From positions 1 to 64,000 of the forward strand of contig CAILRB010000009.1 of assembly GCA_903836465.1 (NCBI GenBank): a DNA stretch of 64,000 nt, in the 5' to 3' direction. The notes under the pieces are model-generated. The model saw only the letters and a list, made by a program, of their open reading frames with translations. It ran no database searches and was not told the origin of the DNA. The position numbers and the translations under genes are program-made. Below are positions 2,854 to 22,754 of this stretch, one piece after another. Positions within the stretch are counted from its first letter, which is position 1. Each line of letters starts with the position of its first letter. The stretch comes from an uncultured Chlorobiaceae bacterium (GTDB lineage Bacteria > Bacteroidota > Chlorobiia > Chlorobiales > Chlorobiaceae).

Positions 2854-2856
2854 GGG

Positions 2857-5346: not shown

Positions 5347-6470
5347 GTTACAATGAATTTCGGCTTCCAGCGACCTTCTGTTTTTGTAAAGAGATCTTGA
5401 TTGGCATATCGATCAAGTACAGCATCAAATTCAGCTTGAGTCATCTGATAATAATCAAGATATTGTTCCATAAACTCTTCAGGATAATGGCCATCATACA
5501 GCCTGACTAAATTGACAGCCTGCGCCCTGTCCATAGCTCCACGCCTGACTTCAATACAGGCATCCTGATTAGCTCTTCCAAAACCATACTTCAAGTACAT
5601 CAAGTAGGTATGAAGCGAATAGAGGGCTTGATCGTTTTGAGAAAAATTGGTAAATGTTCCAGGGTTGGAACATTCGGCTTCCTTCAACCCACAGTGTTCT
5701 TTTGCAACCAAGTAATTACGATAAGGATCCCAGTTTTCAAAATATGACCAATGGGTCAACTGGATTGGATTGGATTGAAATTCATCATCACAAGGGTAAC
5801 GGAAAAAATAAAGATCATCATCCTTTAGACCTGATGCTGCCAGCACTTTATCGTACCCACCTTCGAGATAGACTTTCTGTTGGTAATGAACGTCATAGAT
5901 TGGATTTTTTGAAGTTTCAGTTGATCCGCCATACTCCACTTCACCATCTTCACCATAGAATATCAAGCCAATTCCAAACCCGATTGCTGCACGAATCACT
6001 GCCGTCTGTATTGCAATGAGCCAACCATAATAAGGAAATCCCATTTCAATAAAACCTGTCCGATTCAGCACACGCATAGCCTCATGGGAAGGATTAACTG
6101 AAATATGGTTAAATCCACTTTCAACAAAAGCTCGAAGATTGCGATCGCCAAGCTCAAGCGACAAAGCTGGTGTAACCGTAAGAGCAAGCGGATTCATGCC
6201 GTACTTGTGCTTCAGGTTATAAGCCACATAGGAACCATCTTTTCCGCCACTCACAGGAACAAGGCAATCAAAATGGCCATCGCTTCGCCGGTGTTTATCA
6301 AGAAGATTTACCAACTCTTTCTCTCTCACATCCCACTGAAGCGTCTTTTTCTTTTCTGTCCAGACACATGCGTTGCACCAACCACGATCATCAAAAGTTA
6401 TTCGCGGCCTGGTTGACATGGTCAGGCAATTTGAGCACCAGCAAAGATTTTCTACATTTATTTTATGCAT
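5343..6470 (-). CDS. N-acetyl sugar amidotransferase (PseA/PtmG/WbpG family)
   Basis: 375-residue amidotransferase that converts an N-acetyl group on a sugar to N-acetimidoyl using ammonia and ATP. The N-terminus has two Cys pairs that probably bind zinc (C12/C15 and C32/C35), followed by a PP-loop ATP-pyrophosphatase motif SGGKDG at residues 74-79. The family includes PseA and PtmG of Campylobacter and WbpG of Pseudomonas, which act with HisH/HisF paralogues. The same trio lies here in consecutive overlapping order. In a legionaminic-acid context the expected product is a Leg derivative with one amidino group. Which nitrogen is modified cannot be told. Confidence 0.88.
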   Translation of the reverse strand: MHKINVENLCWCSNCLTMSTRPRITFDDRGWCNACVWTEKKKTLQWDVREKELVNLLDKHRRSDGHFDCLVPVSGGKDGSYVAYNLKHKYGMNPLALTVTPALSLELGDRNLRAFVESGFNHISVNPSHEAMRVLNRTGFIEMGFPYYGWLIAIQTAVIRAAIGFGIGLIFYGEDGEVEYGGSTETSKNPIYDVHYQQKVYLEGGYDKVLAASGLKDDDLYFFRYPCDDEFQSNPIQLTHWSYFENWDPYRNYLVAKEHCGLKEAECSNPGTFTNFSQNDQALYSLHTYLMYLKYGFGRANQDACIEVRRGAMDRAQAVNLVRLYDGHYPEEFMEQYLDYYQMTQAEFDAVLDRYANQDLFTKTEGRWKPKFIVT

Positions 6471-6483
6471 TCAACATCAATTT

Positions 6484-7527
6484 TTATTTGTTATTTGCAC
6501 GAGTCAAATCCTCTTGCCTGCCGACATCCAGCCAAGACTCATGTACAGGATAGGCGACTGTCCTTTTTTCGATCACCTGCAGACGTTCAAACAAGGTCGG
6601 CATATCGCAGCGTGCATCTCGCTCAAGTAAACATAGAGCTTCCGGCTCCAGCACATAAACACCGGCATTGATATGGCTTCGATGCACAGGCTTCTCCTCA
6701 AAACCAACGATATCAATTCCATTGGTCTGTACCACACCAAAAGGGTGTTGCCACTCATGCACACGGACGGCCATGGTGGCTGTAGCATTATGACGAGTGT
6801 GAAAATCGAGCAACTCTCCATAGTGAATGTCTGTCATAACATCACCGTTGGTAACTGCAAATGGCAGAGATGGCTGCGGGTTCAGCAGCCCTAAAGCGCC
6901 CGCTGTACCCAAAGGAGATTGCTCTCGCAAATAATCAATCCGCACTTGCAGGCGATTCCCGTCTCCAAAGTACTCTTCAATGACATGGCCAAGATACTGA
7001 ATGGCCAACACAAAATGGCTGAACCCCTCCTCCTTTGCACGCTCAATGATGTGCTCCAGCATAGGCTTGCCCGAAACGGTCAACATCGGCTTTGGGCAGT
7101 TTTCTGTATGCGGACGAAGACGGGTACCCATACCGCCAGCCATGATAACCATCAAGTTAGGGCGAATAAGCGGTGTAGCGATTTCATCCCAAAGGTACAA
7201 GCCAACAATATGGTGCTGCTCGTCAACAACAGGCACTTGCTGAATTTTGTTCACAACCATTAACTTCCGAACCGCTTCTCGCCCAATTTCATCTGTTACA
7301 ACCAGGGGTGTATGGTGGATAATGCTTTCGATTGGGCTTTTGAGATTGAGACCCCGAAGCAATCCACGCCGAATATCACCATCTGAAATGGTGCCTTGCA
7401 ACTTACCCGTATCATTAACCACCAAAACAATCTTTATCGAAACCTTGGTAAGATTGGTGATTACCTCCTCAATAGTGGCTGACATTGGAAGAATCGCCTG
7501 TCGCCAGATTTGTTTAGTAATGGTCAC
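6484..7527 (-). CDS. CBS-domain sugar nucleotidyltransferase (PtmE-like)
   Basis: 347 residues in two parts: a pair of CBS motifs (about residues 8-120, with PMSATIEE and ISDGDIRRGLL) and a nucleotidyltransferase domain from about 125 with the GGMGTRLRPHT signature at 131-141. This architecture matches PtmE (LegE-type) of Campylobacter, which makes GDP-glucosamine as the first committed step of legionaminic acid synthesis. Its presence supports a GDP-linked legionaminic route rather than the UDP-linked pseudaminic route. CBS domains suggest allosteric control by an adenine nucleotide. It lies 13 bases upstream of the amidotransferase gene. Confidence 0.84.
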   Translation of the reverse strand: MTITKQIWRQAILPMSATIEEVITNLTKVSIKIVLVVNDTGKLQGTISDGDIRRGLLRGLNLKSPIESIIHHTPLVVTDEIGREAVRKLMVVNKIQQVPVVDEQHHIVGLYLWDEIATPLIRPNLMVIMAGGMGTRLRPHTENCPKPMLTVSGKPMLEHIIERAKEEGFSHFVLAIQYLGHVIEEYFGDGNRLQVRIDYLREQSPLGTAGALGLLNPQPSLPFAVTNGDVMTDIHYGELLDFHTRHNATATMAVRVHEWQHPFGVVQTNGIDIVGFEEKPVHRSHINAGVYVLEPEALCLLERDARCDMPTLFERLQVIEKRTVAYPVHESWLDVGRQEDLTRANNK

Positions 7528-7579
7528 TCTTCCTTTCGTCCATCATTCGTTACACAGGTCATAAAAAGACTTTTTTTGC

Positions 7580-8242
7580 TCATAGAATCTCCTTCAACAG
7601 CATAAAAGCTTCTGCCGCATCACACCCTGCGGCAGCGCCACGCAATGATGCCAATGATTGAATAGCCTTATTACTACGAGGAAACGGAAATGCTCCGACC
7701 TCTGAAGAGTAAATGCTCATAGCACTTACTTTTTCAGTTATGAATGGGCTGATGTTTACGAAAACATTCGGTCGAAAACATTCGCCTCCACCAAAACTGA
7801 AATCTGTCTCAGAAAGGGTTTCATAAGCAAGGATTCGCTTAATTGATGGATAGCGAAACCATTTTGTGCAACTGGCAACAGCATCAAAAACGACACGGTG
7901 ATCAGTATGTACGTCGGATGAGTGAGGCACAAATACTTCAGTCGGTTGAAATGAGCTAAATACATCAGACACTGCCTTAACCAAGTCGCCCATCGGTACA
8001 CGATCAAGCTGGATCGTAGGAAAATTAAGCATGAATACCTCATCAAAACAAAAGAGTTCCTTGACCCGATTGATTTCATCAGACCTTCGACTAACTTTCT
8101 CCTGACTCCATCCCGTTTCTACGGAAATAGCAGTAACGATCAGCCAAGCAACTTTTGCGCCTTCGGCTTTACGACGCAGAAGCGTACCTCCGACGCCGAG
8201 AACTTCATCATCTGGATGAGGTGCAACGACTATTGTTTTCAC
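7580..8242 (-). CDS. PIG-L family N-deacetylase
   Basis: Zinc-dependent deacetylase of the PIG-L (LmbE-like) family, 220 residues, normal length. The metal motif is at the N-terminus (APHPDDEVLG, with His9, Asp11 and Asp12), and a second conserved stretch, PHSSDVHTDHR, supplies the remaining ligand. Members remove N-acetyl groups from sugars. Within this locus it could free an amine on a GlcNAc or nonulosonate intermediate so that the nearby GNAT enzyme can add another acyl group, or create GlcN for the PtmE step. The order of action is inference. Confidence 0.86.
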   Translation of the reverse strand: MKTIVVAPHPDDEVLGVGGTLLRRKAEGAKVAWLIVTAISVETGWSQEKVSRRSDEINRVKELFCFDEVFMLNFPTIQLDRVPMGDLVKAVSDVFSSFQPTEVFVPHSSDVHTDHRVVFDAVASCTKWFRYPSIKRILAYETLSETDFSFGGGECFRPNVFVNISPFITEKVSAMSIYSSEVGAFPFPRSNKAIQSLASLRGAAAGCDAAEAFMLLKEIL

Positions 8243-8289
8243 GGATAACTTGTCTTTATTCTAAAAATGAACTTAAGGCTTAAACATTG

Positions 8290-9447
8290 CTAATGAACTA
8301 ACGGATCTTCAGTCTTAAGTATCGATGCAGAAAAATTTAATCGCTTAATGAGGTCATATGCCCTTTGCGCAGCATGACCATCACCAAATAGGTTTTGCAT
8401 GGTAGCTACATTACCCCGAAAAATCGGGTCATCAGCTTGGCGTATACCATCCTTAATAGCCTGTCGCACCGCATCGACAAAAATAACATTTTCTGAGCAT
8501 AGCCTCGCACGTTGACGTAATCCGACATTAATTGCAGGAATTGGAATACTTGCAGACTCAAGCAAGCCTGCAGATGAATTCCCGATAATCAACGATACCG
8601 ATTTAAACAACGCAAGGAATGCATCTCGCGGCAAATTACGGTATACATATACATCTTCAAATAAAGTCTCAATATGTTCGATTGCATTTAGTATCTTTCG
8701 ATTCCCAGGATCTGAATTGGGAGATCCAATAAAACAGAAGTAACCTTGCTCATTCAACTCTGAAACAATATCCAAAAGAATAGAGTCTGAACGATCCACT
8801 TCTATGTCAATAGGATGATAAATAACAATGGCGCTTTTTTCTGGAACATCATATCCAGTGAGCTTCTTAAAGAATGCCCGACTATCAATGCCCTCCAACA
8901 CAGTAAATTTATCAACCGCAATGCTACCAATCGTATAAATTCGCCAGTCTGGCTCCCCAATTGCTAACAAACGTCGTTTATGCTCCTCATGGCTAACAAA
9001 GTGAAATGTAGATAGTTTAGATACCGAATGCCGAATGGGGTTATCGATATAACCATCTGCAGCATGATCACCTCCAAAAAAATGAATTGATGGAATGGAA
9101 AGATAGCTGCCTAGTAACCCGCCAATCATAACATCTTCACGATCTCCCGCATAGAGAATTAAATCAGGAGCAAAATGACGCACCGTATCAATTGAGGCTA
9201 TTAGCAAGTTAGCAGCACTCTTCAATCGGGATGCTTTAGTATCAGAATCAATGAGACTCTCAATATCAAGCAATATGTCAAAACCATCTTGAATAATCTG
9301 GTTAACGGTATAACCAAATGCAGGAGAAAGATGAGCTCCTGATACCAGCAATTTCAAATCAATATCCGAATCACTATTCAGCAATTTGAATAAAGGGCTC
9401 ATCAAATCATATTCAGAACGAATAGAACTAAATGCTAAAATTTTCAT
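8290..9447 (-). CDS. legG: Hydrolysing NDP-HexNAc 2-epimerase (NeuC/LegG family)
   Basis: 385-residue member of the UDP-GlcNAc 2-epimerase fold, hydrolysing type. The start MKILAFSSIRSEYDLMSPL matches the family N-terminus (R-x-E-Y, as in NeuC/LegG). The C-terminal half has GNSSAGLLESASIPIPAIN and NVGLRQRAR, the nucleotide-diphosphate binding region. In legionaminic synthesis LegG releases NDP and inverts C2 to give 2,4-diacetamido-2,4,6-trideoxymannose, the NeuB-type substrate. It shares its first base with the last base of the GNAT gene. Its codons look more AT-rich than those of the housekeeping genes. Confidence 0.86.
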   Translation of the reverse strand: MKILAFSSIRSEYDLMSPLFKLLNSDSDIDLKLLVSGAHLSPAFGYTVNQIIQDGFDILLDIESLIDSDTKASRLKSAANLLIASIDTVRHFAPDLILYAGDREDVMIGGLLGSYLSIPSIHFFGGDHAADGYIDNPIRHSVSKLSTFHFVSHEEHKRRLLAIGEPDWRIYTIGSIAVDKFTVLEGIDSRAFFKKLTGYDVPEKSAIVIYHPIDIEVDRSDSILLDIVSELNEQGYFCFIGSPNSDPGNRKILNAIEHIETLFEDVYVYRNLPRDAFLALFKSVSLIIGNSSAGLLESASIPIPAINVGLRQRARLCSENVIFVDAVRQAIKDGIRQADDPIFRGNVATMQNLFGDGHAAQRAYDLIKRLNFSASILKTEDPLVH

Positions 9448-10259
9448 TAAAATACGTCCGACATAACCATGTGCAGTTTAAAGTTTGGTATAAAACATTG
9501 CCGTTCAATACGATAGCCGAATTGATAATCCATTCGTATATTATCGTTCGAGAACATACCCATCAGTTCTTGATCAACAATCATATTGAAGAAAAGATCA
9601 TCGGGCAGCACTTTCAACGCAGCAGGATCACCGAAATACATGAGGTCGAACTCATCACCAAAGCGCTTAAGCAAAACACCATCGAATTCCCACCACTCTC
9701 CCCCAGGTTTCATCATCCGCCAATTACGTACAAGAATGCTATTCATATCTAAAGTATAGCGGCTTGAATCTTGATAGTATTTAAGAAAGGCTTCTGATGC
9801 CAACAAAATCTTTTTATTAACACGAACAACACATCCGTCCTCATTTATCTTCCAATCAAGCCTTTTTCTGAACCCCGGAGCCGATAGCTTGTTGGGAAAG
9901 CCAATAATTAAGCCGGAAATTGATTTTTCTTTCACCAAATTATTTACCCTTGTAGCTAACGCCACAAAAAGGCCATATTTGCGATGTGTTTTAGCCACTA
10001 CAGTCGTCATACTTAAATAACTATCCAGTGATTTCCCCACACTGTTGGCCAAATGCAATGGAATGACGGCGTAATGAGCAACTAACCTATCATGTTCGTA
10101 TGCTAGAGAAACAATCGGATCACCAAATATGTTGTCCAAATATGCCCAATTCCAAATGTGAACATCCAACTCCCTTTCAAAACCCTCTTTAAAAAGTCTT
10201 AAAATTTCATCTTTATGTCCATTCAGATCATCCTTGCATTGAATATCTACTATCTCCAT
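9447..10259 (-). CDS. GNAT-like acyltransferase
   Basis: 270-residue protein with a GNAT-like N-terminal half: FERELDVHIWNWAYLDNIFGDP, then a central strand-helix set (STMTTVVAKTHRKYGLFVAL is the likely acyl-CoA site, residues about 85-105). The C-terminal half also resembles distant GNAT-fold polysaccharide enzymes. No signal peptide or membrane segment is seen. It lies between a 3-hydroxybutyryl-CoA dehydrogenase homologue and legG, 11 bases from the former, so N-acylation of an amino sugar from a CoA thioester is a reasonable inference. The acyl group could be acetyl or 3-hydroxybutyryl. Assignment to the fold is moderate and the substrate is unknown. Confidence 0.65.
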   Translation of the reverse strand: MEIVDIQCKDDLNGHKDEILRLFKEGFERELDVHIWNWAYLDNIFGDPIVSLAYEHDRLVAHYAVIPLHLANSVGKSLDSYLSMTTVVAKTHRKYGLFVALATRVNNLVKEKSISGLIIGFPNKLSAPGFRKRLDWKINEDGCVVRVNKKILLASEAFLKYYQDSSRYTLDMNSILVRNWRMMKPGGEWWEFDGVLLKRFGDEFDLMYFGDPAALKVLPDDLFFNMIVDQELMGMFSNDNIRMDYQFGYRIERQCFIPNFKLHMVMSDVF

Positions 10260-10270
10260 ATTGCTTTTTA

Positions 10271-11137
10271 TCAGTAAATATAAAATCCAATATTTGTTTT
10301 TCGACCAAGATGATGAGCTCGAACCATCTTACGCAGTAGGGGATGGGCTCGATATTTAGGATCACCGGTTTCGGCATAAAGCGTTTCCATTATAGATAGA
10401 CAGATATCATTACCAATAAGATCAGCAAGTGCCAATGGCCCAAGAGGATGGTTGGCGCCATTTTTCATCGCCTTGTCAATTTCCTCTTTACTTGCTACCC
10501 CTTCTGCATAAATTGATACCGCCTCATTAATCATTGGAATAAGCATCCTGTTAACAATAAAACCGGGAGATTCATTCACTACAACTGGCGTTTTGCCAAG
10601 TTTCTCTGCAAACTTGACAGCCTTTCCAATGGTTTCTTTCGAAGTCAAATGACCAGCCACAACCTCAACCAGAAGCATTTGTAACGCTGGGTTAAAGAAA
10701 TGTATCCCTACAAAATTTTCTGGATGAGGGAGTTCCATCCCTAAGCTTGTTATCGAAAGTGATGATGTGTTCGTCGCAACAATCGCTTCTTCACTCACAT
10801 AATTAGAGAGCTCGATAAAAAGTTTCTGTTTAGGCATCTGTGATTCAATAATGGCCTCAATTATCATATCATCACCACTGACACAACATAAATCGATATT
10901 TATTTCAAGCTTATCGAGACCTTGAGAATATTGTTCTTCGGTTATTACACTGCGTCGAGTCAATCGCTTTAGATCACGTTCAACACTAGCTCGCGCACCG
11001 ACAGAAACACCATCTTTACCAACCCAATTAATATGCGTCACAAAATTATTGGCGCAAAGCAATGAAACAATTCCTTTACCCATAACCCCAGAACCAATAA
11101 CACTTACCCTCAAATCGTTCCTCCCGAAATTACCCAC
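10271..11137 (-). CDS. 3-hydroxybutyryl-CoA dehydrogenase homologue
   Basis: 288 residues, the usual length of single-domain 3-hydroxyacyl-CoA dehydrogenases. The NAD-binding VIGSGVMGKG is at residues 13-22. The catalytic set is complete and correctly spaced: S125 (NTSSL), H146 (GIHFFNPA), E158 (EVVAG) and N196 (NRML). It interconverts acetoacetyl-CoA and 3-hydroxybutyryl-CoA. Fatty-acid degradation genes are absent nearby; it lies between an ORF6N gene and a GNAT-like gene inside a nonulosonic-acid locus. Nonulosonic acids often carry N-3-hydroxybutyryl groups, so supplying that acyl-CoA is a likely role (inference). It is more AT-rich than the housekeeping genes, in line with horizontal acquisition. 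Confidence 0.9.
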   Translation of the reverse strand: MGNFGRNDLRVSVIGSGVMGKGIVSLLCANNFVTHINWVGKDGVSVGARASVERDLKRLTRRSVITEEQYSQGLDKLEINIDLCCVSGDDMIIEAIIESQMPKQKLFIELSNYVSEEAIVATNTSSLSITSLGMELPHPENFVGIHFFNPALQMLLVEVVAGHLTSKETIGKAVKFAEKLGKTPVVVNESPGFIVNRMLIPMINEAVSIYAEGVASKEEIDKAMKNGANHPLGPLALADLIGNDICLSIMETLYAETGDPKYRAHPLLRKMVRAHHLGRKTNIGFYIY

Positions 11138-11249
11138 TTTAATGACATTATTTTATGTGCCAAGCATAATTAAACAGTTCGTTGAAAACTAAATCCAAGA
11201 GGCATAAAACACACTCTATCACTCCTCCCTAGCGCAGCAAACCATATTC

Positions 11250-11270
11250 GGTACGGGTACGGGTACCGGT
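11250..11270. repeat. Short GGGTAC hexamer repeat
   Basis: Three near-identical hexamers (GGTAC, GGGTAC, GGGTAC) run from 11250 to 11266 and end in CCGGT, in the gap between the ORF6N gene and the dehydrogenase gene. The repeat is GC-rich within an AT-rich spacer. It may be a recombination scar or a binding site. Confidence 0.4.
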
Positions 11271-11287
11271 GATGACACAAAGTTTCC

Positions 11288-11836
11288 TCACGGTTTTTTC
11301 TTCTTTATCGTATGCTTGAACTTCAAAACCGCAAAGTTCAGCTCTATTGATGTTTCGGTATCGCTTGTTTGCAAATCGTCATCAAAAATATCGGCAATAA
11401 GTTCACCACTCTTTTGCATGAGCGATTTTTGTTCTGCTTTATCCTTCGCCAGTGACAACTCTTTGATACTTCTGGAGAGTTCCCTGATTTTTGAAAAAGT
11501 CTCTATGATGGATATTGTTGCCTGTATTGCTTGTGGACTTTTGAGTATTGTAGCAAGCATATACAGCCCTTTTTCAGTAAATGCTTTGGGATTGACTGTA
11601 GAGTGCTTGAGCTTCTCGAACCGGTGGAAATTTTCCACCAGTTCATTTTTTTCAGGCTTTGAAAGTTTTAAGATATAACCAAAAGGGAATTTAACAGGAT
11701 TATTCGTGACCGCTTTATTGATATCTCGGGTCTCAACTCCATAAATTTGAGCAACATCACTGTCAAGCAAGACACTCTGACCTCTTATCTCAACGATCAG
11801 CTCTTTTAAATTCTCAATTTTTATGATCTCACTCAT
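11288..11836 (-). CDS. ORF6N-domain DNA-binding protein
   Basis: 182-residue protein with an ORF6N domain in the N-terminal half (about residues 8-95: VEIRGQSVLLDSDVAQIYGVETRDINKA is split by the usual turn, then FTEKGLYMLATIL). The C-terminal part is charged and helical (KELSLAKDKAEQKSL, with a KKKK tail). ORF6N domains are known from phage antirepressor-type proteins and are presumed to bind DNA. Its ATG overlaps the neuB stop by 4 bases (ATGA), so it is translated as part of the sugar operon. No other phage gene is near. It may regulate the locus or be a passenger; its function is unknown. Confidence 0.85.
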   Translation of the reverse strand: MSEIIKIENLKELIVEIRGQSVLLDSDVAQIYGVETRDINKAVTNNPVKFPFGYILKLSKPEKNELVENFHRFEKLKHSTVNPKAFTEKGLYMLATILKSPQAIQATISIIETFSKIRELSRSIKELSLAKDKAEQKSLMQKSGELIADIFDDDLQTSDTETSIELNFAVLKFKHTIKKKKP

Positions 11837-12834
11837 AACAGATCATCCTTGTCATAGTCTTTCACAGCAGCTTGTCCAATAATCTCATCCCACCGCATGG
11901 GTGAAATACCTGTTCCTGGTCGCTTGGCTGTGACGTTCTGTGCACTGAAGAGTTCACCAGCTTTAATCAACTTGCTGGCAACAAGTGATTTACGAGCAAC
12001 AGGCTTATTCTTTGCTTCGCCTGGAGTGAGCCGTTTGATGCCATCACCAAGAGCAACTTCGATATTGCGAATGGCTGTTACCATAGCCTTGAGTTCTGCA
12101 GGTTCAAGACTTGCCTTGTGATCAGGGCCTGGCAAATTGCGATCAAGGGTAAAGTGTTTTTCGATGACCGTTGCGCCCAAGGCAACAGCGGCAATTGCTA
12201 CTTCGATACCTTGCGTATGATCTGAATAACCCACCGCCACACCAAATGCACTATGAAGGCTCTGCATAGCTCGAAGATTTACCTCTGTCATTGGTGTAGG
12301 ATATTCTGTGGTGCAATGCAGCAGTGTAAGATTAGTATGAGACGTACCGGCTTGTTCAAGCACCCCAAGTGCAGCTTCAATATCTCCCAAGGTTGCCAAC
12401 CCGGTAGAAAGAATAACCGGCTTACCAAGTTGACCAATATGGCGCAGGTAAGGGAGATTGTTGATCTCTCCTGATGGAATCTTGAACTGATATTGACCGA
12501 GACTCACCAGCAGATCAACACTCTCGATATCAAAACCTGTAGAAAAAAAGCTAATATTGCGCAATGCACAATGGGCGATAAGTTCGTTGTGCATTTCACG
12601 ATTGAGTTCCAGTCGGCGGAGCATCTCATGCTGCGATTCATTGCCATCCGTACTCTTTTTCTGGTAGTCGGCCTTTTTGGCTATGTGCGTAACCAGACGG
12701 TCAGCGTTGAAGGTCTGAAACTTGACAAGATCAGCACCCGCTTCGGCTGCAACGTCAATCAACTTCTTGGCTAATTCCATGTCACCATTATGGTTGACAC
12801 CAGCTTCAGCGATAATAAGCGTTCGTTGTGTCAT
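11833..12834 (-). CDS. neuB: N-acetylneuraminate/legionaminate synthase
   Basis: NeuB-family synthase, 333 residues, full length. It condenses phosphoenolpyruvate with a 6-carbon N-acyl mannosamine-type sugar to make a 9-carbon nonulosonic acid. The N-terminal TIM-barrel has EAGVNHNGDMELAKKLID and VKFQTFNADRLV. The metal and PEP region SDHTQGIEVAIAA and EKHFTLDRNLPGPDHKASL are clear. The C-terminal part (from about residue 275) is the SAF/antifreeze-like domain that caps the active site. It overlaps the neuD stop by 4 bases and its own stop overlaps the ORF6N start by 4. LegB and LegC in the same operon make it a LegI-type enzyme. Confidence 0.93.
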   Translation of the reverse strand: MTQRTLIIAEAGVNHNGDMELAKKLIDVAAEAGADLVKFQTFNADRLVTHIAKKADYQKKSTDGNESQHEMLRRLELNREMHNELIAHCALRNISFFSTGFDIESVDLLVSLGQYQFKIPSGEINNLPYLRHIGQLGKPVILSTGLATLGDIEAALGVLEQAGTSHTNLTLLHCTTEYPTPMTEVNLRAMQSLHSAFGVAVGYSDHTQGIEVAIAAVALGATVIEKHFTLDRNLPGPDHKASLEPAELKAMVTAIRNIEVALGDGIKRLTPGEAKNKPVARKSLVASKLIKAGELFSAQNVTAKRPGTGISPMRWDEIIGQAAVKDYDKDDLL

Positions 12835-13460
12835 GAGCTACTCTTGCCGGTATATCGTGAATGATCAGCCTGATTACTACGCACGGAAAGGCCCATCCCA
12901 ATCACGCAACCTTCTCCAATTTTTACACACTCTTTGATAACAGTGCCACTACCTACAAAACTTCCTTTACCAATTGTGACGCCGCCATTTAAGATTGCCC
13001 CTGTTGAAATATGGCAGTGATCTTCTACCGCAGAATCATGTTCAAGGAGTGAACGATTGTTGATAATGCAATTCTCTCCAACCCTGACGCCAGCATTCAC
13101 AATTGCCCCATGCATCACTATTGTGCCGGAACCAAGAGTGGCGTGTCGGGACACATACGCCGTCGGCGCTATAATAACTGGAAGTTGAAAGCCGAGCTTG
13201 ACTGCTTGCAGATAAAGTCGTATACGGCTACCTGGCGACAGAATCTGACCCAAAGAGATCAGTGCATAGTTGTACTCTTTGAGCAGTTGAGGCAAGTCAT
13301 CATCGGTGGCTATAACTGGATAGCCCAAGTGCTTGTCGTGCATTTCATGCGCCATTCCAACCAACCCGGCAATCTGGTAATGGCCTTGATGCTCAATAAC
13401 ATCAATGCAGGAGTGAGCATGGCCGCCAGCACCTATGAGTATGATACCTGGTTTGCTCAT
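12831..13460 (-). CDS. neuD: NeuD/PglD-family sugar acetyltransferase
   Basis: Left-handed beta-helix acyltransferase of 209 residues. I chose the ATG at 13460 (MSKPGIILIGAGGHAHS), although the frame is open to 13586, because it gives the family N-terminus and a 4-base ATGA overlap with the legC stop. The N-terminal Rossmann-like part (GAGGHAHSCIDVIE) binds the sugar nucleotide. The hexapeptide repeats occupy about residues 90-195 (HGAIVNAGVRVGENCIINN, then GAILNGGVTIGKGSF). In legionaminic synthesis this type of enzyme (LegH) N-acetylates the 4-amino group made by LegC. Confidence 0.88.
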   Translation of the reverse strand: MSKPGIILIGAGGHAHSCIDVIEHQGHYQIAGLVGMAHEMHDKHLGYPVIATDDDLPQLLKEYNYALISLGQILSPGSRIRLYLQAVKLGFQLPVIIAPTAYVSRHATLGSGTIVMHGAIVNAGVRVGENCIINNRSLLEHDSAVEDHCHISTGAILNGGVTIGKGSFVGSGTVIKECVKIGEGCVIGMGLSVRSNQADHSRYTGKSSS

Positions 13461-14644
13461 GAAACCGCTTGAAGCAGAGTTGAACTGCTCGGAATATTTA
13501 TCAAACGCTGAACAAGCGACTCTGCGCCAGCCAAATCCATACGAGGGCACTCCCTGAATGGAGCCAACTCGTGCATTAAAATCCATGCGGGGCGAGTCAT
13601 AATGCCTGCATCGTTGGTGGCCTGAAGCAGTATATCACGTTGATCGGCATTGTTTGAGTCAAGCACAAGAGTTTGCAGCCAGTAGTTGCTTTGACATTGT
13701 GCTGGTTCCTCCACCAGCCTGATACCCGACACTGTTGCGAATGCCGCTTGATAACGCTGAAACAGCTCCTTTTTGGCTTTGAGCATTGCTGGCAACTGCT
13801 CCAACTGCGCACAGCCCAAAGCCGCATTGATGTTTGGCATACGGTAGTTGTAACCGATTTCATCATGGCGGTACTCCCATGCATGTGGCAACTTGGCTGT
13901 TGTGGTCAAATGCTTGGCATGGCGGGCAAGCTCTGGATCATCGGTCAGAATTGCACCGCCTCCTCCAGTAGTTATGGTCTTGTTGCCATTGAAACTCAAG
14001 GTGCCCATCAAACCAAATGTTCCGGTATGGCGACCGTGATAGTAACTGCCAAGAGACTCGGCTGCATCTTCAACAAGTGCAAGATTAAAATCGTACGCTA
14101 TGGAAATGACTTCATCCAAATCAACCGAATGACCAAAGGTGTGCATGGGCACGAGAGCCCTGATGATCTTTCCTGTTGTGCGGTTGATACACTGACCGGC
14201 ACGCTGCTTGGAATGGTGTTCCAGATAGTCACGCAACTTTACAGCATCAACACCTAACGTATTTTCGTCACTATCCACAAAATGTGGGGTTGCGCCGCAA
14301 TAAGTCACGGCATTGGCGGTAGCAACAAAGGTAAGCGCCGGAATCAGCACTTCATCACCACTGTTCACGCCTGCCAGTTTTAACGCAATGTGCAGAGCGG
14401 CTGTGCCATTCACTACAGCAACCACATGTTTGGCTCCGGTAAAGACTGCAAGATCAGTCTCAAAGCGGTCAACAAACTTGCCGACGGACGAGACAAAGGT
14501 TGAATCGAGACACTCTTTGAGATAGAGCCACTCGTTGCCGGAAAAGGTTGGTTCATGCAGAACCGCCGATTTCTGTCCGATAACTTTACGTAAAGCGACA
14601 ATGACTTGATCAGCAAGAGTGAATGGGGTGCTCAAATCGTTCAC
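13457..14644 (-). CDS. legC: LegC-type sugar aminotransferase
   Basis: PLP-dependent DegT/DnrJ/EryC1-family aminotransferase. It transfers an amino group to C4 of the 4-keto-6-deoxy sugar nucleotide made by LegB. The frame is open to 14698, but a GTG at 14644 that overlaps the legB stop (GTGA) fits the coupled style of the operon and leaves 395 residues starting VNDLSTPFTLADQ. Motifs seen are VVNGTAALHIALKLAGV (PLP phosphate region), GDEVLIPALTFVATANAV, VEDAAESLGS, and the PLP lysine in SFNGNKTITTGGGG. The size and N-terminus match LegC rather than PseC. Confidence 0.88.
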   Translation of the reverse strand: MNDLSTPFTLADQVIVALRKVIGQKSAVLHEPTFSGNEWLYLKECLDSTFVSSVGKFVDRFETDLAVFTGAKHVVAVVNGTAALHIALKLAGVNSGDEVLIPALTFVATANAVTYCGATPHFVDSDENTLGVDAVKLRDYLEHHSKQRAGQCINRTTGKIIRALVPMHTFGHSVDLDEVISIAYDFNLALVEDAAESLGSYYHGRHTGTFGLMGTLSFNGNKTITTGGGGAILTDDPELARHAKHLTTTAKLPHAWEYRHDEIGYNYRMPNINAALGCAQLEQLPAMLKAKKELFQRYQAAFATVSGIRLVEEPAQCQSNYWLQTLVLDSNNADQRDILLQATNDAGIMTRPAWILMHELAPFRECPRMDLAGAESLVQRLINIPSSSTLLQAVS

Positions 14645-15648
14645 AGGTTGTATATATCCGATTTGTAACTGGCCAAGTTCGCAGGGTTCATGAACCATTC
14701 AGCGGTTTCAGCAAGACCACGCTTGAACCCCTCTCGACCACCATAACTCGGCTGCCATCCGAATAGTTGCCGGGCTTTGGAATTATCAGCCCACAAGCGC
14801 TCAACCTCTGAATTCGCTGGACGTAAACGATTCTCATCCGTAATAATTTCAATTTCGGTATTCATCACTTCCGCAATCAACTGAACTGTATCACCAATGG
14901 ATATCTCAAAGTTACTACCAAAGTTGACGACCTCACCCAAGCCTTGATCAGAGTTCATCGCTGCAATAAATCCAGCTACCGTATCCTGCACAAAGTTGAA
15001 ATCACGCGTAGGTGAAACTGCACCAAGCTTTATCTGCCGTTTACCATTGGCAATCTGGGTAATGATGGTCGGAATAACAGCACGGGCAGACTGACGGGGA
15101 CCGTAAGTGTTGAATGGTCTCGCAATAACAACAGGTAATCCAAAAGAAGCAAAAAAGGAATAAGCCAATTGGTCAGCAGCAATTTTTGTAGCAGAGTAAG
15201 GCGACTGCCCCTGCAACGGATGCTCTTCAGCTATAGGCACAAAACGTGCTGTCCCATATACTTCGCTGGTGGAAGTATGAACTACTCTCTTGATGCCAAG
15301 CTCCCGCGCCGCCTGCAAGACATTGAGTGTTCCCTTGATATTGGTATCGACATAAGTATCTGGCGAGTGGTACGAGTAGGGTATTGCTATGAGTGCTGCA
15401 AGATGGAGTACAACATCACAACCCTTCATTGCCTCTTTTACTCCGTGCGGGTCGCGGATGTCACCGGGGAATATCTCAAATTTTCCATTTACGTCTGGTG
15501 CGCAGTGGTCGAGCCAGCCCCATGAGTTGAAGGAGTTATAGAGAACGAAGGCGCGGACATTATAGCCTTGGCGAACGAGGGTTTCTGTCAGGTGTGAACC
15601 GATAAAGCCGTCGGCACCGGTAACAAGAACGGTTTTACTCTTCAGCAT
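14641..15648 (-). CDS. legB: NAD-dependent 4,6-dehydratase LegB
   Basis: Extended SDR sugar-nucleotide 4,6-dehydratase of 335 residues. It converts an NDP-GlcNAc to the 4-keto-6-deoxy intermediate. The NAD-binding GADGFIGS is at residues 11-18. The active-site TSTSEVYG is at 125-132 and the catalytic pair Y151/K155 lies in YSATK. The segments NSFNSWGWLDH, RPFNTYGPRQSARAVIPT and the C-terminal EVERLWADNSKA are characteristic of LegB rather than PseB/PglF. It opens the four-gene overlapping block and lies 26 bases after the ABC flippase stop. Confidence 0.92.
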   Translation of the reverse strand: MLKSKTVLVTGADGFIGSHLTETLVRQGYNVRAFVLYNSFNSWGWLDHCAPDVNGKFEIFPGDIRDPHGVKEAMKGCDVVLHLAALIAIPYSYHSPDTYVDTNIKGTLNVLQAARELGIKRVVHTSTSEVYGTARFVPIAEEHPLQGQSPYSATKIAADQLAYSFFASFGLPVVIARPFNTYGPRQSARAVIPTIITQIANGKRQIKLGAVSPTRDFNFVQDTVAGFIAAMNSDQGLGEVVNFGSNFEISIGDTVQLIAEVMNTEIEIITDENRLRPANSEVERLWADNSKARQLFGWQPSYGGREGFKRGLAETAEWFMNPANLASYKSDIYNL

Positions 15649-15674: not shown

Positions 15675-17495
15675 CTAATTGCTGGAATTTTCGCCAAAAA
15701 GATGTGCAATCCGAGTCTCTCTTGGCTCATTTGAAACTATTTCCTGATAGCTGCCAATCCGCTTAATGCCGCCATCCCCAAGCTCAACAACCTGAGTACA
15801 GTTTTTCAGGGTGGTAAGGCGGTGGGCAATAATCAAAATCGTCAATTCATTTCCCAAGCTCTCAATAGCCTCCATCACCGCCTGTTCTGTGTCGTTATCA
15901 AGAGCGCTGGTGGCTTCATCAAAAATGATAACATCAGCCTGTTTGTAAAGAGCGCGTGCAATACCGATGCGCTGCCGCTGCCCTCCAGAGAGACGGATAC
16001 CCCGCTCTCCAACATAAGTTTTATACTTTTTAGGCCAGCTTTCAATAATCTGTGCAATCTGTGCCTGTTGCGCTGCCTGCTTGACCCGGTTATGGTCAAT
16101 GTTGCCTTTTGGTATCCCGAAGGCAATGTTTTCCTCAATAGTGCTGTCGGAAAGGTAAATAGCCTGCGGCACATGGGCAATATGCGCCTGCCACGCCCTG
16201 TTGTTGGCTGAGGCTATTGGCTGACCGTCAATCTCAAGAGCACCATCGGTAGGTTGCAGGAGCCCCATAACAACATCAAGCAGTGTGCTTTTTCCACTGC
16301 CTGTTACCCCGATAAAACCAGTCCGGCTACCCTTGCATATCTCCAGATTGAGATTGTTGAGTACCAGAGGAGTCTGCTCGGTGTATCGAAAAGAGAGATT
16401 TTTCAGCTCAATCTTTTTGAGGAACATCAACGGCTTTGCGGGCGGTTGATCGGCATAATCAGGCAGTGGCTGCTCAAGCAGTTCAAGAGCATCCTTCAAC
16501 GAGGCTTCACCTCCCTGTATGGTCGACAACGATGAATAAGCAAGCTGCAATATCGGTAAAAGACGCTGGGCACCAAGTGCAAGAACACCGAGAACTGGAA
16601 TGGCTTTGGCAATACCGTTGGGTTGCAGGGCAAGCATGTAGGCAAGGGCAGAAATCAGCAGCATACCCAACGCTTCAAGAGCATAACGGGGGCTCATACC
16701 GATAAACAAATTATTCCCCTGAGCATGACGCAACGGCAAATCAGCATTGCGGTAAATTTGACAGTAAGCTGCCTGCGTGCCATCAATCAAAACATCACGG
16801 ATGCCACCCAACCCCTCCTGCAGCGACTTGATGACCTGCGTCGATTCATGAGCTATACGTTGGCTGTTCACCACCAACCGGCTTTGTGTAATCTTGATAA
16901 TCAACGCATAGAGCAATCCAAAACCGCCAAAAGCCGCCAACGCAATAACAGGATCTACTGAAACCAGAGTGATCAGGATAGCCAGTAAGATAATGGTTGA
17001 GCTGATGAGGTTCAGAATACTGGTAAAGGTATAAATGACAGTGTTCGTTTTGGTTGATATACCGTTAATGATTTCACTGCTGTTACGGGCAACATGCACT
17101 GAATAGGGCTGGTAGAGCGTGCGCCGGTAGATGCTGATGCTGAGGTCAGCCCCGGTTGCATAAGAGAGGCGTGTGCTGGCCCAGAGAAGGAACAGACGCA
17201 CCCCACCCGAGAGAAGCGCCGCCAAGCCGAATAAAATGGTGAGCGGGAGCAGAAGCTGGCTGGGGTTTTTCATACCCAATGCCTTGATAAACGGCTGCGC
17301 TGCGGAGAGCTGAAAGATTCTCTCCGGAGCGGTCAGCACGGCAAGAAACGGCAACACTGCGCCAATGCTGAGGATTTCGGCAAACGATGCGCCGACCATC
17401 AACAAAAGCAACAACATGAATTGGACTCGGCGCCTTGGGTTGATTTGGTGCCAGAGACGTTGGAGAAGCATTGGTATTGAATTCACCTGATCCAC
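15675..17495 (-). CDS. ABC transporter, PglK-type lipid-linked oligosaccharide flippase
   Basis: Single-chain ABC half-transporter of 606 residues. Six membrane helices occupy roughly residues 25-335, followed by one ATPase domain with Walker A GVTGSGKST at 396-404, signature LSGGQRQRIGIARAL, Walker B VIIFDEATSALD and the switch His in IIAHRLTTL. All ATPase motifs are intact. The N-terminal sequence resembles PglK/WlaB flippases, which turn undecaprenyl-linked glycans across the inner membrane. With no Wzx or Wzy gene in view, this is the likely flippase for the locus. Its start overlaps the end of the phosphatase gene by 13 bases. Confidence 0.86.
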   Translation of the reverse strand: MDQVNSIPMLLQRLWHQINPRRRVQFMLLLLLMVGASFAEILSIGAVLPFLAVLTAPERIFQLSAAQPFIKALGMKNPSQLLLPLTILFGLAALLSGGVRLFLLWASTRLSYATGADLSISIYRRTLYQPYSVHVARNSSEIINGISTKTNTVIYTFTSILNLISSTIILLAILITLVSVDPVIALAAFGGFGLLYALIIKITQSRLVVNSQRIAHESTQVIKSLQEGLGGIRDVLIDGTQAAYCQIYRNADLPLRHAQGNNLFIGMSPRYALEALGMLLISALAYMLALQPNGIAKAIPVLGVLALGAQRLLPILQLAYSSLSTIQGGEASLKDALELLEQPLPDYADQPPAKPLMFLKKIELKNLSFRYTEQTPLVLNNLNLEICKGSRTGFIGVTGSGKSTLLDVVMGLLQPTDGALEIDGQPIASANNRAWQAHIAHVPQAIYLSDSTIEENIAFGIPKGNIDHNRVKQAAQQAQIAQIIESWPKKYKTYVGERGIRLSGGQRQRIGIARALYKQADVIIFDEATSALDNDTEQAVMEAIESLGNELTILIIAHRLTTLKNCTQVVELGDGGIKRIGSYQEIVSNEPRETRIAHLFGENSSN

Positions 17496-18214
17496 AGAAT
17501 ATTCTTGACGGCGTCAGGTGAATGCGCATCAGTGCCAGCATGGGTATAGACACCGGTTTTTTCATAATACCGGGCACTCGCTTTTACCCTGCCGCCATAC
17601 TGACCATTGATGCTGCCGAGGTTGCCCTGAAACTGGCATCCCAGTTGTTTGAAATAACGAAGCAACTCATTGCCTGGTTCGGTGTCGTTGTTCTTCCCAC
17701 TGCTCCCGGAAAGCCATCTCTTCCACCTCCCTGCCCCCGGAAGTTTCTGTTCCACCGTTTCCAGCAAAAAGCAGCGCTCGGGGTGTGCGATAAGAGGAGT
17801 ATAGCCTCTGCGTTTAACCGCAAAGATCGTCTCCTTCACCAGATCTACAGAGGTGTTGTTGGGAATTTCAATCATCATGCAGGTCGTGCCTTCGAGGAGC
17901 AATGGCTTACTGATGTAGTCCAGCAGGAATTCGTCGAGGTAGTATTCGCGACCGGAATGCAGTGTGATGCCAATGCCTTGCTTCTCCAGCTCACGCTGAA
18001 GCTTGTCGCGCTCATGAAGCACCTCTTCGGTAGAGACCTCATACATGCCCTTAATCAGGTGCGGTGTACAATAGACTTCACGATACCCTGCCTCTGCAAG
18101 CAGACGAGCCATCTCAATCGACTCATCATGTTCCTTTGGTCCATCATCAATACCCGGCAAGATATGGCAATGATAATCGGTGGTTCGCTGTTGCCGTGGC
18201 ATTCCTGTGACCAA
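17483..18214 (-). CDS. CpsB/YwqE-type PHP tyrosine phosphatase
   Basis: 243-residue metal-dependent phosphotyrosine phosphatase of the PHP class. It should dephosphorylate the Wzc-type kinase encoded just upstream. Metal ligands are visible at the N-terminus (DYHCHILPGIDDGP, H15 and H17), in the middle (IAHPERC) and at the C-terminus (GTDAHSPDAV). A segment of about 45 residues between HPERC and YFKQLG is rich in Trp, Gly and Ser and looks like an insertion relative to shorter members. It lies 20 bases after the kinase gene, and kinase-phosphatase pairs of this kind control chain length and export of capsular polysaccharide. Confidence 0.88.
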   Translation of the reverse strand: MVTGMPRQQRTTDYHCHILPGIDDGPKEHDESIEMARLLAEAGYREVYCTPHLIKGMYEVSTEEVLHERDKLQRELEKQGIGITLHSGREYYLDEFLLDYISKPLLLEGTTCMMIEIPNNTSVDLVKETIFAVKRRGYTPLIAHPERCFLLETVEQKLPGAGRWKRWLSGSSGKNNDTEPGNELLRYFKQLGCQFQGNLGSINGQYGGRVKASARYYEKTGVYTHAGTDAHSPDAVKNILWIR

Positions 18215-18234: not shown

Positions 18235-20613
18235 TCAGGACTTGCGGAGCTTGATGTCACCCACTTTCGAGATAAGCTCCTTGACAAAGGAAAGCTTGCC
18301 TCTCTTTTTCCCCTCTACCTCCTCGCCATAGCCATAGCCATAGCCATAGCCATAGCCATAGCCATAGCCATAGCCGTAGCCACTCCCACGGAGAGATTTG
18401 TTGTTAAACACAAACCCGGCTACCGGCGCTTTTGCGCTTTGCAGCATTTCACTGAGTCGGGTTGCCGCTTTTCTTGGTATACGTCCAGCTTCCATCACAA
18501 CAAGTACAAGATCAGCAAATGAGGTCAGTACAATAGAATCACTTACCGGAAGGGTTGGCGGAGCATCAATAATTATCTGATCAAACATCTCCCGGAGACG
18601 TTCAATAAGCTCTTTCATGGCTGGAGAGCCAAGGAGCACCGACGGGTTCGGGGGAGGGGTCCCGGTCGAAAAAAAGGTTAGGTTGTTTATGATTGTCGGC
18701 TGCAAGGCAGTGGCAAGGGGAACATCGCCAGCAAGCACTTCAGTAACTCCTGGAATTTGCTTCATACCAATCCTCTGGTAGAGGATTGATTTATGAAAGT
18801 CACAGTCAATCAGCACCGTCCGAGCGCCGGTCAGTCCAGCCGTAATCGCCAGATTTGTGCTGATAGTACTTTTGCCTTCACCTGAAAAAGCGCTGGTGAG
18901 CACAATAACTTTTCGCTTCTGGTTCAGCGCTGAAAAGTGAATGGCGGTGCGAAGTGAACGAAATGCCTCTGCTGGAATAGATTTCTGCTTTGTGTGAGCG
19001 ATGATAGAGAGATTCTCCTCTTCATTGTTTCCATCTTCACCTTTTCCAATATAAGGGATGGTTGCAAGGTAAGGAAAGCCAAGAAGGTTTTTTGCCTCAC
19101 TTTCGTTCTTAACTGTATCATCAAGGTAGTCAATAAGCAATGCAAGAGCTATGGCTGCAATAAGACTGATGAAAAAGCCTATCAGCAGGTATTTGACTTT
19201 TTCGGGTCGGACTGGAGTTGCCGGAATAATTGCTGTATCAATGACGTTGATGTTGCTGATGGTTGATGCTTTTGCAATGCGGGCCTCTTCATGCTTCTGC
19301 AGCAGGAAGATATAGATGTCACCCGTGACCTTAGCCAAGCGGGTATAGCGCGCAAGATCACGCTCTTCAACGGGTATGCCCCGAAGCTGACCTTCGTATG
19401 TGGAAAGTCGCTGGGTAACGTCCGACTCCTGTTTGGCGAGATTTTTGAGCCCTGTTTTGTAGGTGCTCCTGATTTTCTGCTGGATCTCATCAATCTGCGC
19501 CTGCACATTCAGAATGGAGGGATGGTTTTTTGTGTATTCAACCAGAAGTGATCGCTTCTGCACCTCAAGGTTGGCAAGCTGCTGGGCCATCTCAGCAACC
19601 AGCGGATCATCTTTCATAACTGCAGGCGAGTATGGCGTGCCCTGTGCAAGGGTTGCCCGTTGTGCATCAAGTGCAAATTCAAGCTGTTTTTTTCGAAGAT
19701 TAAGCTCCACTCTGTCCTGCTCAAGGGTTGAATATTTCTTGATCAACTCCTCGGCCTCGGCATCAAGCTTGACAATCCCTGATGATGTTTTATATTGCTG
19801 GAGGTTAACCTCGGCCTTGTTCAGATCATTTTTTATGTTCTGCAACTGCTCTTCAATAAAACTCACCGATTTTCCGGCTTCCTGGGTTTTAAAGGCGAGA
19901 CTCTTGTCGAGGTACGCCTGCACCAGGGTGTTGACGACATCGCGAGCAAGCGAGGCGTTGGTGTTCTCATAGGAGACCTCAATCACGTTCGTCATTCTAC
20001 CCAACTCCTTGACCTTTATTGCTGATTCGAGGGCAGCGACAGCCTTGTACAACGGTGTATGGGTAAGTTCAAAAGAATCAGCTTTATTACCAGAAAGTTG
20101 TAGATTGAGGATAATACCCGGCAAACGTAAAGGAATGCTATTATTGCCTTTCCCTAATATTTTGCCGCTGCCGTCTTCTACTTCATAGCTCTCTTTTCCT
20201 GTCATGGTGACTTTCAGCACCTGTACCGCTTGTGAGGTTGCAATGTCGAGGATCTTGCAGGATGATTTTGCAGAAGAGGGAGTAATCATCCATTGAAGGT
20301 TCAGCTTGTTGACCACCTCTTCAGCTATGGTTCTCGATTTGATGATCTCAATTTCAGCCTGGATCGAGTTATCACCCCCAGGCATGATCAGCTCATTGAT
20401 CCCCATCTTTGCGTTGTCTTTTTTGACATTGACGGTGGATGATGACTGATAGACAGGCCGCATCAGGAACGTATAAAGAATAACACTGACTAAAACCGTC
20501 AGGAAAACAGTGACAAAAACTTTTCGCCGACGGAAAATAATGTTGATATAATCGGCAAGATTGATCTCCTGCTGCTGAAAAATATTTTGATTTTGTTCCT
20601 GTAATTCAGTCAC
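18235..20613 (-). CDS. Wzc-type polysaccharide co-polymerase/tyrosine autokinase
   Basis: 792 residues. A Wzz-type N-terminal domain is bounded by membrane helices at about 31-52 and 475-496, with a long periplasmic coiled coil (about 250-450) between them. The cytoplasmic BY-kinase domain has Walker A SGEGKST at 577-583, Walker A' LIDCDFHKS at 601-609 and Walker [15 protein letters not shown] near 680. The C-terminal tail contains nine alternating Tyr-Gly pairs, an unusual tyrosine cluster coded by a hexamer microsatellite. Autophosphorylation of this cluster regulates oligomerisation and polysaccharide assembly in known members. The gene follows the Wza-type exporter and precedes the cognate phosphatase. 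Confidence 0.93.
18325..18378 (-). repeat. Hexanucleotide microsatellite in the autokinase tail
   Basis: Eight perfect tandem copies of GCCATA (18325-18372) and one variant GCCGTA (73-78) read on the plus strand, 54 bases in all. On the coding strand each unit adds one Tyr-Gly pair. Length changes in steps of one unit keep the frame, so slippage would change the number of tyrosines without inactivating the kinase. Confidence 0.95.
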
Positions 20614-20655: not shown

Positions 20656-21468
20656 TTACTGTTTCAGGTACTTGATATTGACAAATGGCTGAAGTATCGA
20701 ACTGACAGTCTGAAGCGAGGGCAAGAGGTCTGAAATAGCATCATTCCAGCTCCCGACAGCACTTTTTGGGACATAAACGATATCCCCTTCCTGAAGCTGC
20801 ATGGGTACTGCCTTACCTCGCAGTATACTGTCGAAATCAACAATGAGAAGTTCACCCTGCGTCGGGGTATTGGATCGGATAATCCTTACTTTCTGAAAAT
20901 TGTAGCCCGTATTCTGCACTTCAGCATTTGCGATGACTTGCGCGAGGTTTACCCCTGAGGCCGGCATAGCAAATGGACCCGGTTTTTTTACGGCGCCAAA
21001 AACAAATACCTGGCGCGTGCGGTATTCGGAAATTTCAACAACAACCCAAGGATTGTTAAAGTATTGGCGCATGACAGAGTATATCCTCTCCCTCACCTCG
21101 GAGAGTGGTAATCCTCCGACAGTAACTTTTCCTGCAATGGGAAGATAAATGCACCCTCTGCCGTCAACCCGGTAGCCTTTAAACTGAGTATTGCTCCCTC
21201 CTGCTCCGATGAATTCCGTTTTTCCGCTGACGTTGACAGAGAGCACATCGTTGGGGCCTATGCGGTAGTCATAAGACTGTGGTGGTAGAGGTGAAGTCGA
21301 TGAAGTCTCTCCAACGTCGACAGCTTCACGGATGTTTGTAGCCTCTGGCTTTGCGTTAATGCGTTGATGAGTACCTGCAGGAAGATCCTTGTATGAGGCG
21401 CAACCACTCATTAAAAGTGACAGGGCAAAGAGCACCATTACCGGGCGAAAGATGTTTTGGAACATCAT
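20656..21468 (-). CDS. Wza-type polysaccharide export lipoprotein
   Basis: 270-residue outer-membrane polysaccharide export protein. A signal peptide with lipobox LLMSGC puts the lipidated Cys at residue 23. The Poly_export domain follows (YRIGPNDVLSVNVSGK at about 68-83, then YRVDGRGCIYLPIAGKVTVGG), then SLBB-type soluble ligand-binding segments (VFVFGAVKKPGPFAM, EGDIVYVPKS). It lacks the long C-terminal helix of E. coli Wza, as do many shorter family members. It lies 42 bases upstream of the autokinase and is the first gene after the 185-base intergenic region. Confidence 0.9.
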   Translation of the reverse strand: MMFQNIFRPVMVLFALSLLMSGCASYKDLPAGTHQRINAKPEATNIREAVDVGETSSTSPLPPQSYDYRIGPNDVLSVNVSGKTEFIGAGGSNTQFKGYRVDGRGCIYLPIAGKVTVGGLPLSEVRERIYSVMRQYFNNPWVVVEISEYRTRQVFVFGAVKKPGPFAMPASGVNLAQVIANAEVQNTGYNFQKVRIIRSNTPTQGELLIVDFDSILRGKAVPMQLQEGDIVYVPKSAVGSWNDAISDLLPSLQTVSSILQPFVNIKYLKQ

Positions 21469-21653: not shown

Positions 21654-22754
21654 TCATTGCTGGAGAAGCTGCTGATTCTCTTTCAGTGAAGGATTTGATG
21701 CTCGCTTTAGATTGATATAGATGAATATGTACAGAAAAAAACTGATCAGCCATGCTGCAATAAGTATGTCGGTATGACGGTATTGCCAAACAGCTACACT
21801 TGAGACAAGGGCTGCGTAGGTCCAGCAAAATGGTGCAACAAGACTGTTCCGTATTTTCAGCCGCAGGTGCCCGAAATAGGGACGAACAATCTTTATTTTA
21901 ATGAGGCTGTGCAGATGCTCGCTGTCCGGCAGGCCAAGGGAGACTTTCTGGACGTAACGACGTCCCATGGTGAAGAGGGCTTCATTAACGGGGTAGGCAC
22001 ACACCAGCAACGGTGCCCAGACGGAGACTTGCGGGTTGCGCATCGGGAGCATCACGGCCACCCAGGCAAGAAGAAAGCCGAGTACATAGGCCCCGCCATC
22101 GCCAAGGAATATTTTACCGAATGGAAAATTAAAGACAATAAAACCAGTCAGTATGACGACTATCGTCAAACACAACTGTGCCAGCTCCCGGTCACCGACT
22201 TCGAGTGCAATCAACCCCAAGGCAACAAAAAGGAGCATGATAGTCCCTGAAGCAAGACCGTTGAAACCATCAATCATGTTAATGGCATGTGCAACACCAG
22301 CCACGGCAAAGGCGGTAAATGCTATGGAGAGGGGAAGATAGAGAAGAAGAGAGTCCACACCCATAATCTCAAGGTGAGTTATGGTATAGCCTGTCAACCA
22401 CCAAGCGGCGACACCACTAAGCATGGTTGAAAGGAGGCGACTGAAAGCGCTCACCCGTTTGGTTAGGTCTTCAAGCAGTCCTGCGGCAAAGGCTGGCACA
22501 CTGGCAATCACCATCGAGCAAAGAAGTCTCGACAGGGGTTGAGGAGAGACAAAACATGCTACAACAAGGGCGAGAAATATCGCTACACCTCCAATCCTTG
22601 GGGTGGGATCAACATGGAACTTTTGTGGACCTTCTACCGTATCATGCGAGTGTTTGCCATGCCATTGCTGCGTCATCACCACAACGCAGGTCAACCCTAA
22701 AGAGGTAAGTCCAGAAATAATAAGGCCATCATGAAGAATATCGAGGAGGGGCAA
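21654..22754 (-). CDS. WecA/MraY-family undecaprenyl-phosphate sugar-1-P transferase
   Basis: Glycosyltransferase family 4 membrane protein, 366 residues with about ten predicted helices. It transfers HexNAc-1-phosphate from a UDP-sugar to undecaprenyl phosphate and so starts a lipid-linked glycan. Characteristic cytoplasmic motifs are seen: GLLEDLTKRVS (in place of the usual DDxxD), HAINMIDGFNGLASG and IFLGDGGAYVLGF, with the His-containing SEHLHSLI loop. It is the only glycosyltransferase-like gene in this locus. It points the same way as the exporter genes but is separated from them by 185 bases. Confidence 0.88.
   Translation of the reverse strand: MPLLDILHDGLIISGLTSLGLTCVVVMTQQWHGKHSHDTVEGPQKFHVDPTPRIGGVAIFLALVVACFVSPQPLSRLLCSMVIASVPAFAAGLLEDLTKRVSAFSRLLSTMLSGVAAWWLTGYTITHLEIMGVDSLLLYLPLSIAFTAFAVAGVAHAINMIDGFNGLASGTIMLLFVALGLIALEVGDRELAQLCLTIVVILTGFIVFNFPFGKIFLGDGGAYVLGFLLAWVAVMLPMRNPQVSVWAPLLVCAYPVNEALFTMGRRYVQKVSLGLPDSEHLHSLIKIKIVRPYFGHLRLKIRNSLVAPFCWTYAALVSSVAVWQYRHTDILIAAWLISFFLYIFIYINLKRASNPSLKENQQLLQQ

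Follow-up and report, generated by a model that had tools for sequence, protein, structure and literature searches.

The tyrosine tail of a Wzc-type BY-kinase from an uncultured Chlorobiaceae bacterium is coded by an in-frame hexamer microsatellite, and its relatives, which appear to have altered both the repeat unit and the size of the array in nearly every species, suggest that this tail evolves through repeat turnover. We consider it probable that the tyrosine cluster, coded by an in-frame micro- or minisatellite, undergoes repeat turnover through slippage or unequal exchange, and that the number of units by default drifts within a permissive range. The array lies in the 64,000-nucleotide stretch of DNA analysed here (hereafter referred to as the window; Table 1). 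Read on the minus strand, it begins with TACGGC and continues with eight identical TATGGC units, which together code nine Tyr–Gly pairs, (YG)9. A previous sequence-only reading of the window described nine tandem hexamers coding nine Tyr–Gly pairs in the kinase tail. The nine pairs stand, with the amendments that the gene runs along the minus strand, that one unit is a synonymous TAC variant and that the array lies near the C terminus of the kinase, 29 residues short of its extreme end. The unit is six bases long and in frame, and therefore its gain or loss leaves the reading frame intact, as that reading had argued. We found no description of microsatellite-coded BY-kinase tails in the open-licence literature searched.

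The gene product is a kinase of the Wzc type, as previously proposed. It has Wzz (PF02706, 1.9e-14) and GNVR (PF13807, 2.3e-13) domains fused to the kinase domain, as in PCP-2a proteins, its match to TIGR01007 exceeds the cut-off, and the solved structures nearest to it are Wzc octamers (PDB 7nhr, E=1.7e-65). Like the Escherichia coli Wzc/PCP-2a BY-kinases (PDB 7nhr and 3la6), it combines a Wzz-type periplasmic part and GNVR with Walker A, A′ and B motifs, a tyrosine-rich tail and an OPX neighbour. Walker A′ reads VLIDCDFHK, with H/K replacing the usual R, Walker B reads IIIDAPP and the EX2RX2R motif reads EAFRSLR (residues 549–555); these motifs and Walker A are largely invariant across the orthologue alignment. 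The nine YG pairs lie 168 residues past Walker A, at the position of the autophosphorylated tyrosine cluster of the family, where the sequence-only reading had also placed them, and by analogy with the family this tail is presumably phosphorylated. The OPX gene lies upstream and the phosphatase gene downstream, and the phosphatase is of the PHP type (CpsB), unlike the Wzb partner of E. coli Wzc.

Table 1 Features of the window around the BY-kinase gene
Feature	Position	Strand	Details
Nonulosonic (legionaminic-type) acid genes LegB, LegC, NeuD and NeuB	11833..15648	minus	TIGR04180, TIGR04181, TIGR03570, TIGR03569
PglK/MsbA-like ABC transporter, probable flippase or exporter	15675..17495	minus	PglK best match
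CpsB/CapC-type (PHP) phosphotyrosine phosphatase, presumed kinase partner	17483..18214	minus	PF19567 E=3.3e-33
BY-kinase, Wzc/PCP-2a type	18235..20613	minus	792 aa; Wzz, GNVR, kinase domain, YG tail
C-terminal extension, 29 residues past the array	18238..18324	minus	acidic start, then basic, weakly amphipathic predicted helix
YG microsatellite	18325..18378	minus	TACGGC + (TATGGC)8; kinase residues 746–763
Walker A motif GEGKST, residues 578–583	18865..18882	minus	sequence; invariant in orthologue alignment
OPX, Wza-like outer-membrane polysaccharide export protein	20656..21468	minus	PF02563 2.8e-18, SLBB_2 1.8e-7
WecA/MraY-type initiating glycosyl-phosphate transferase	21654..22754	minus	PF00953 1.1e-30

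The capsule to which the sequence-only reading referred finds no support in the neighbourhood. The adjacent genes make a nonulosonic acid, with all four TIGR matches exceeding their cut-offs, and the genes scanned included no recognisable Wzx/Wzy pair, so that 'capsule' as a product name is a guess. The ABC transporter matches PglK at E=1.3e-78 but under the cut-off of that model. The nonulosonic acid genes belong to a large cluster of the legionaminic type with WbuX/WbuZ-type amidation genes (window positions 2149–15648, minus strand) in this green sulfur bacterium. An apparently truncated IS5-family transposase, covering approximately the first half of its family profile, occupies positions 605–1207.

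The array is far purer than its coding function would predict. Tandem Repeats Finder (TRF) assigned it a period of 6, 9.7 copies and a 96% match, with a score of 109, the highest in the window (the next is 73). Seven of the eight neighbouring hexamer pairs are identical, against 1.16 expected from local codon usage (p = 5e-5, the lowest value that the simulation could return), and nowhere else in the 2.77-Mb genome does this codon pattern run to four or more YG. That the array is prone to slippage is well supported, with good backing from the comparison of species. A genome rich in microsatellites in general was ruled out, as just two pure arrays reaching 24 bp or more, the window array among them, occurred in 367 kb of the source genome, and loss of mismatch repair was rejected as a cause, with both MutS and MutL in the genome; their presence also weighs against turnover by slippage. 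The second pure array (L141; G000:C15:18682-18785) consists of 8.7 copies of the 12-nt unit GGCGTTTTCACC and codes TGVF repeats within a short open frame.

Comparison with orthologues located the change in the tail. The closest orthologue (L004, genome G078) is 86.5% identical to the window kinase, and 38% of fourfold sites differ between the two genes. No gap separates the two proteins across the 740 residues before the tail, and the comparison with the G069 orthologue is likewise free of gaps; among the three closest orthologues, all length change is confined to the tail, and the array differs in size or layout in each. This combination of an indel-free kinase body with differing tails is a footprint of repeat turnover. 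Opposite the (TATGGC)8 of the window, L004 has (TATGGG)8, which indicates the spread of one unit, beside which eight parallel C-to-G changes are implausible. In other orthologues, the tail reads YG4-SG-YG5-SG-YG2 (G069), YG13 with a 12-nt unit, TATGGATACGGA (G079), YG15 in a mixture of TATGGC and TATGGA (G054), YG8 with fully mixed codons (G007), YG2-G-YG6 (G075) or YG mixed with NG at a period of 18 nt (G060). Across close orthologues the tyrosines number 9 to 15, as counted between species from one genome each, mostly draft or metagenome-assembled, in which the longest arrays are possibly collapsed. Different numbers and differing units are what slippage would yield, in line with the previous proposal that it changes the tyrosine number. 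The array resembles a simple-sequence contingency locus in being purer than codon use predicts and in differing in repeat number or unit between close species at constant flank lengths.

Comparable purity was found in most arrays of the family, and it bears on a rival explanation, in which selection acts at the protein level only, the YG repeat being selected as a substrate and the DNA purity being mere codon bias. The Chlorobiaceae units vary by species, ending in GGC, GGG or GGT or forming a 12-nt unit, and 52 of the 87 neighbouring hexamer pairs are identical, where the codon usage of each gene predicts 14.7 in total. Codon bias was rejected as the source of purity in 7 of the 11 arrays (p<0.01), and L004 uses GGG, which has a usage of 0.19 there, eight consecutive times. 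Three YG arrays (G007, G071 and, largely, G069) are mixed-codon exceptions. A peptide repeat can indeed be kept without DNA purity, as 69 of the 394 Bacteroidota genomes surveyed contain YG arrays of at least 5 in the codon pattern of the window array, and mixed-codon YG tails are widespread among them. All but one of the 50 arrays that we read outside Chlorobiaceae (L076-L105 and L108-L127) lie at the C terminus of a BY-kinase, the exception (L117) not being a kinase, and they lie about 165–190 residues past Walker A in the kinases where that motif was detected; the YG peptide itself is therefore ordinary. In one other family, moreover, five species keep 8, 8, 8, 7 and 8 YG despite quite different codons. 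Selection on the protein alone is nevertheless already contradicted for the window array, and we regard it as highly improbable for the Chlorobiaceae tails as a whole.

The arrays outside Chlorobiaceae share with the window array a YG tail (YG5–13), the distance from Walker A and, often, a basic C terminus. Unlike the window array, they are codon-scrambled, with runs of identical hexamers no longer than 4: only 43 of the 302 neighbouring hexamers are identical, against 67.2 expected from their own codon use, and 0.0002 of the simulations were as low, although these purity counts treat related species as independent and the probabilities are rough. They also show a weak excess of 18-nt (three-unit) periodicity (56 against 36.8 expected). 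The scrambling and the 18-nt period may reflect selection against slippage. That arrays are DNA-pure in Chlorobiaceae and codon-scrambled elsewhere bears on whether codon choice serves to permit or to suppress slippage.

Pure arrays recur in a second group of Chlorobiaceae BY-kinases. Their hexamer tails include (TATGGC)9 in G022, (TATGGT)5 in G052 and (TATGGT)10 with a separated part in G080, and this group also contains perfect 15-nt units coding YGYGK in 3 to at least 8 copies. Examples are (TATGGGTATGGCAAA)6, (TATGGGTATGGCAAG)6, (TACGGCTATGGGAAG)5, (TACGGTTACGGCAAA)5 and at least 8 copies of (TATGGTTATGGCAAG), and the 15-nt units are distinct in most species. G062 and G038 each encode two paralogues with different units, and homogenisation is therefore local to each array. 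In the kinase tree the two groups (10 and 20 rows) lie apart, and the pure arrays are scattered in a manner that needs approximately eight state changes.

Two apparent signs of length polymorphism or strain variation were rejected. The G080 array is split over contigs C53 and C111 (L106 1-200 and L107 100-200), with approximately four units on one side and ten on the other. Each half adjoins imperfect inverted repeats (GTGCTCGTTAGAGAATAACTATAACAA and GTGATTGTTAATAAATAACTATAACAA), with TAT common to both, and such terminal inverted repeats beside the array suggest that an insertion element splits it, which rules out the assembly break as a length polymorphism. In G056, two contigs share one 15-nt unit and are not strain variants, as both end within the array, at a contig break of the kind that long repeats cause.

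From what is known of the family, the tail tyrosines of each subunit would receive phosphate in trans from its neighbours, and the PHP phosphatase of the adjacent gene would remove it, a cycle that would operate the kinase ring and so govern polysaccharide assembly. Slippage or unequal exchange, as the comparison between species suggests, would gain, lose and homogenise whole units of the Chlorobiaceae tail DNA, so that each species would end with its own unit and its own tyrosine number, with the frame always kept. The kinase would tolerate a broad span of tail lengths, and the unit number would by default drift inside a permissive range, with modest effects at most.

The sequence-only reading had proposed that repeat number is a tuning device, which is possible; a tail that is neutral and permissive is no less likely, and a disordered tail in which any tyrosine number over some minimum works is equally compatible with the data. 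In Wzc, the tyrosine tail is autophosphorylated in trans, phosphorylation breaks the octamer and the phosphatase resets it (PMC8285477; PMC12220298). The more tyrosines are replaced, the less Wzc is phosphorylated, and none of them is essential or sufficient by itself (PMC8285477); at least four replacements by Glu badly cut capsule production (PMC8285477; PMC12220298), whereas a Wzc with three tyrosines changed to Glu still makes capsule (PMC8285477). A review concludes that total phosphorylation has to pass a threshold (PMC12220298). Such a threshold, with no essential tyrosine, fits a rheostat or a tolerant tail alike. In the rheostat, selection would keep slippage, and tyrosine number would set the phosphorylation capacity and thereby polymer length or amount, with graded, heritable variation in a population. 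The graded loss of phosphorylation in Wzc, the span of tyrosine numbers among close orthologues and a DNA purity far over codon expectation in two kinase groups speak for it; the capsule made by the triple Glu mutant and the Ser and Asn tolerated in place of Tyr inside orthologue arrays speak against it, and we hold it to be unlikely. Distinctly unlikely, in our estimate, is the wider proposal that pure arrays serve a selected rheostat for polymer length in Chlorobiaceae and that scrambled codons fix the length in other Bacteroidota. As to the relation between tyrosine number and polymer length, reviews hold that the number in BY-kinase tails is not conserved and that the total threshold matters; a lineage that alters it in whole steps of the repeat, the rest staying in place, amounts to a natural series of alleles.

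Known systems share parts of this arrangement. The pneumococcal CpsD/Wze kinases, with (YGX)3–4, likewise have tandem YG-containing tyrosine repeats and a CpsB-type phosphatase, and wze of the serotype 19A subtypes differs by one YGX repeat; unlike the window kinase, they are separate kinase polypeptides (PCP-2b) with few repeats, which are not described as a DNA microsatellite (PMC8519296). An Acinetobacter capsule glycosyltransferase gene contains a four-copy in-frame hexamer, TAAATT, from which a unit was lost both in vitro and during infection of a patient, and thus on an observable time scale (PMC9247103). It resembles the window array as an in-frame hexamer in a surface polysaccharide gene in which slippage changes two residues, and differs in that the slip was selected by phage (PMC9247103). 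As a strain-level control, E. coli wzc was of little use: 4697 genomes match its 3′ end, only one of them at less than 95% identity, and its tail is not a DNA repeat of the window type.

The window tail further differs from that of E. coli Wzc in being a pure, microsatellite-coded YG repeat with a 29-residue extension after it. The E. coli Wzc tail has been proposed to thread the active site of the neighbouring subunit from its free end. The tyrosine stretch of the window kinase has no free end, and with this extension it cannot simply thread a neighbour's active site in that way. The extension also opens a reading in which the array is mainly a flexible linker of variable length between the kinase and a basic C-terminal helix docking on the membrane or the kinase, with the number of units setting its reach and not its phosphate count. 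In most orthologues, as in many other Bacteroidota, the array is succeeded by a C-terminal segment that is basic and weakly amphipathic; that of the window kinase, kept in the closest orthologues, has a moment of 0.40 and a charge of +3. An AlphaFold2 model of the kinase (mean pLDDT 61), whose low confidence makes it weak support, leaves the YG tail unstructured and places a helix at residues 774–790. The extension is, however, missing in L009 and very short or missing in the second kinase group, and the retention of Tyr instead of any flexible residue points to phosphorylation. We therefore judge a mainly tethering role quite improbable and retain repeat turnover within a permissive range as the preferred reading. 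The segments that follow YG arrays in many Bacteroidota BY-kinases are acidic and then basic, and often aromatic or amphipathic, and possibly constitute a feature of this BY-kinase group that has no name yet.
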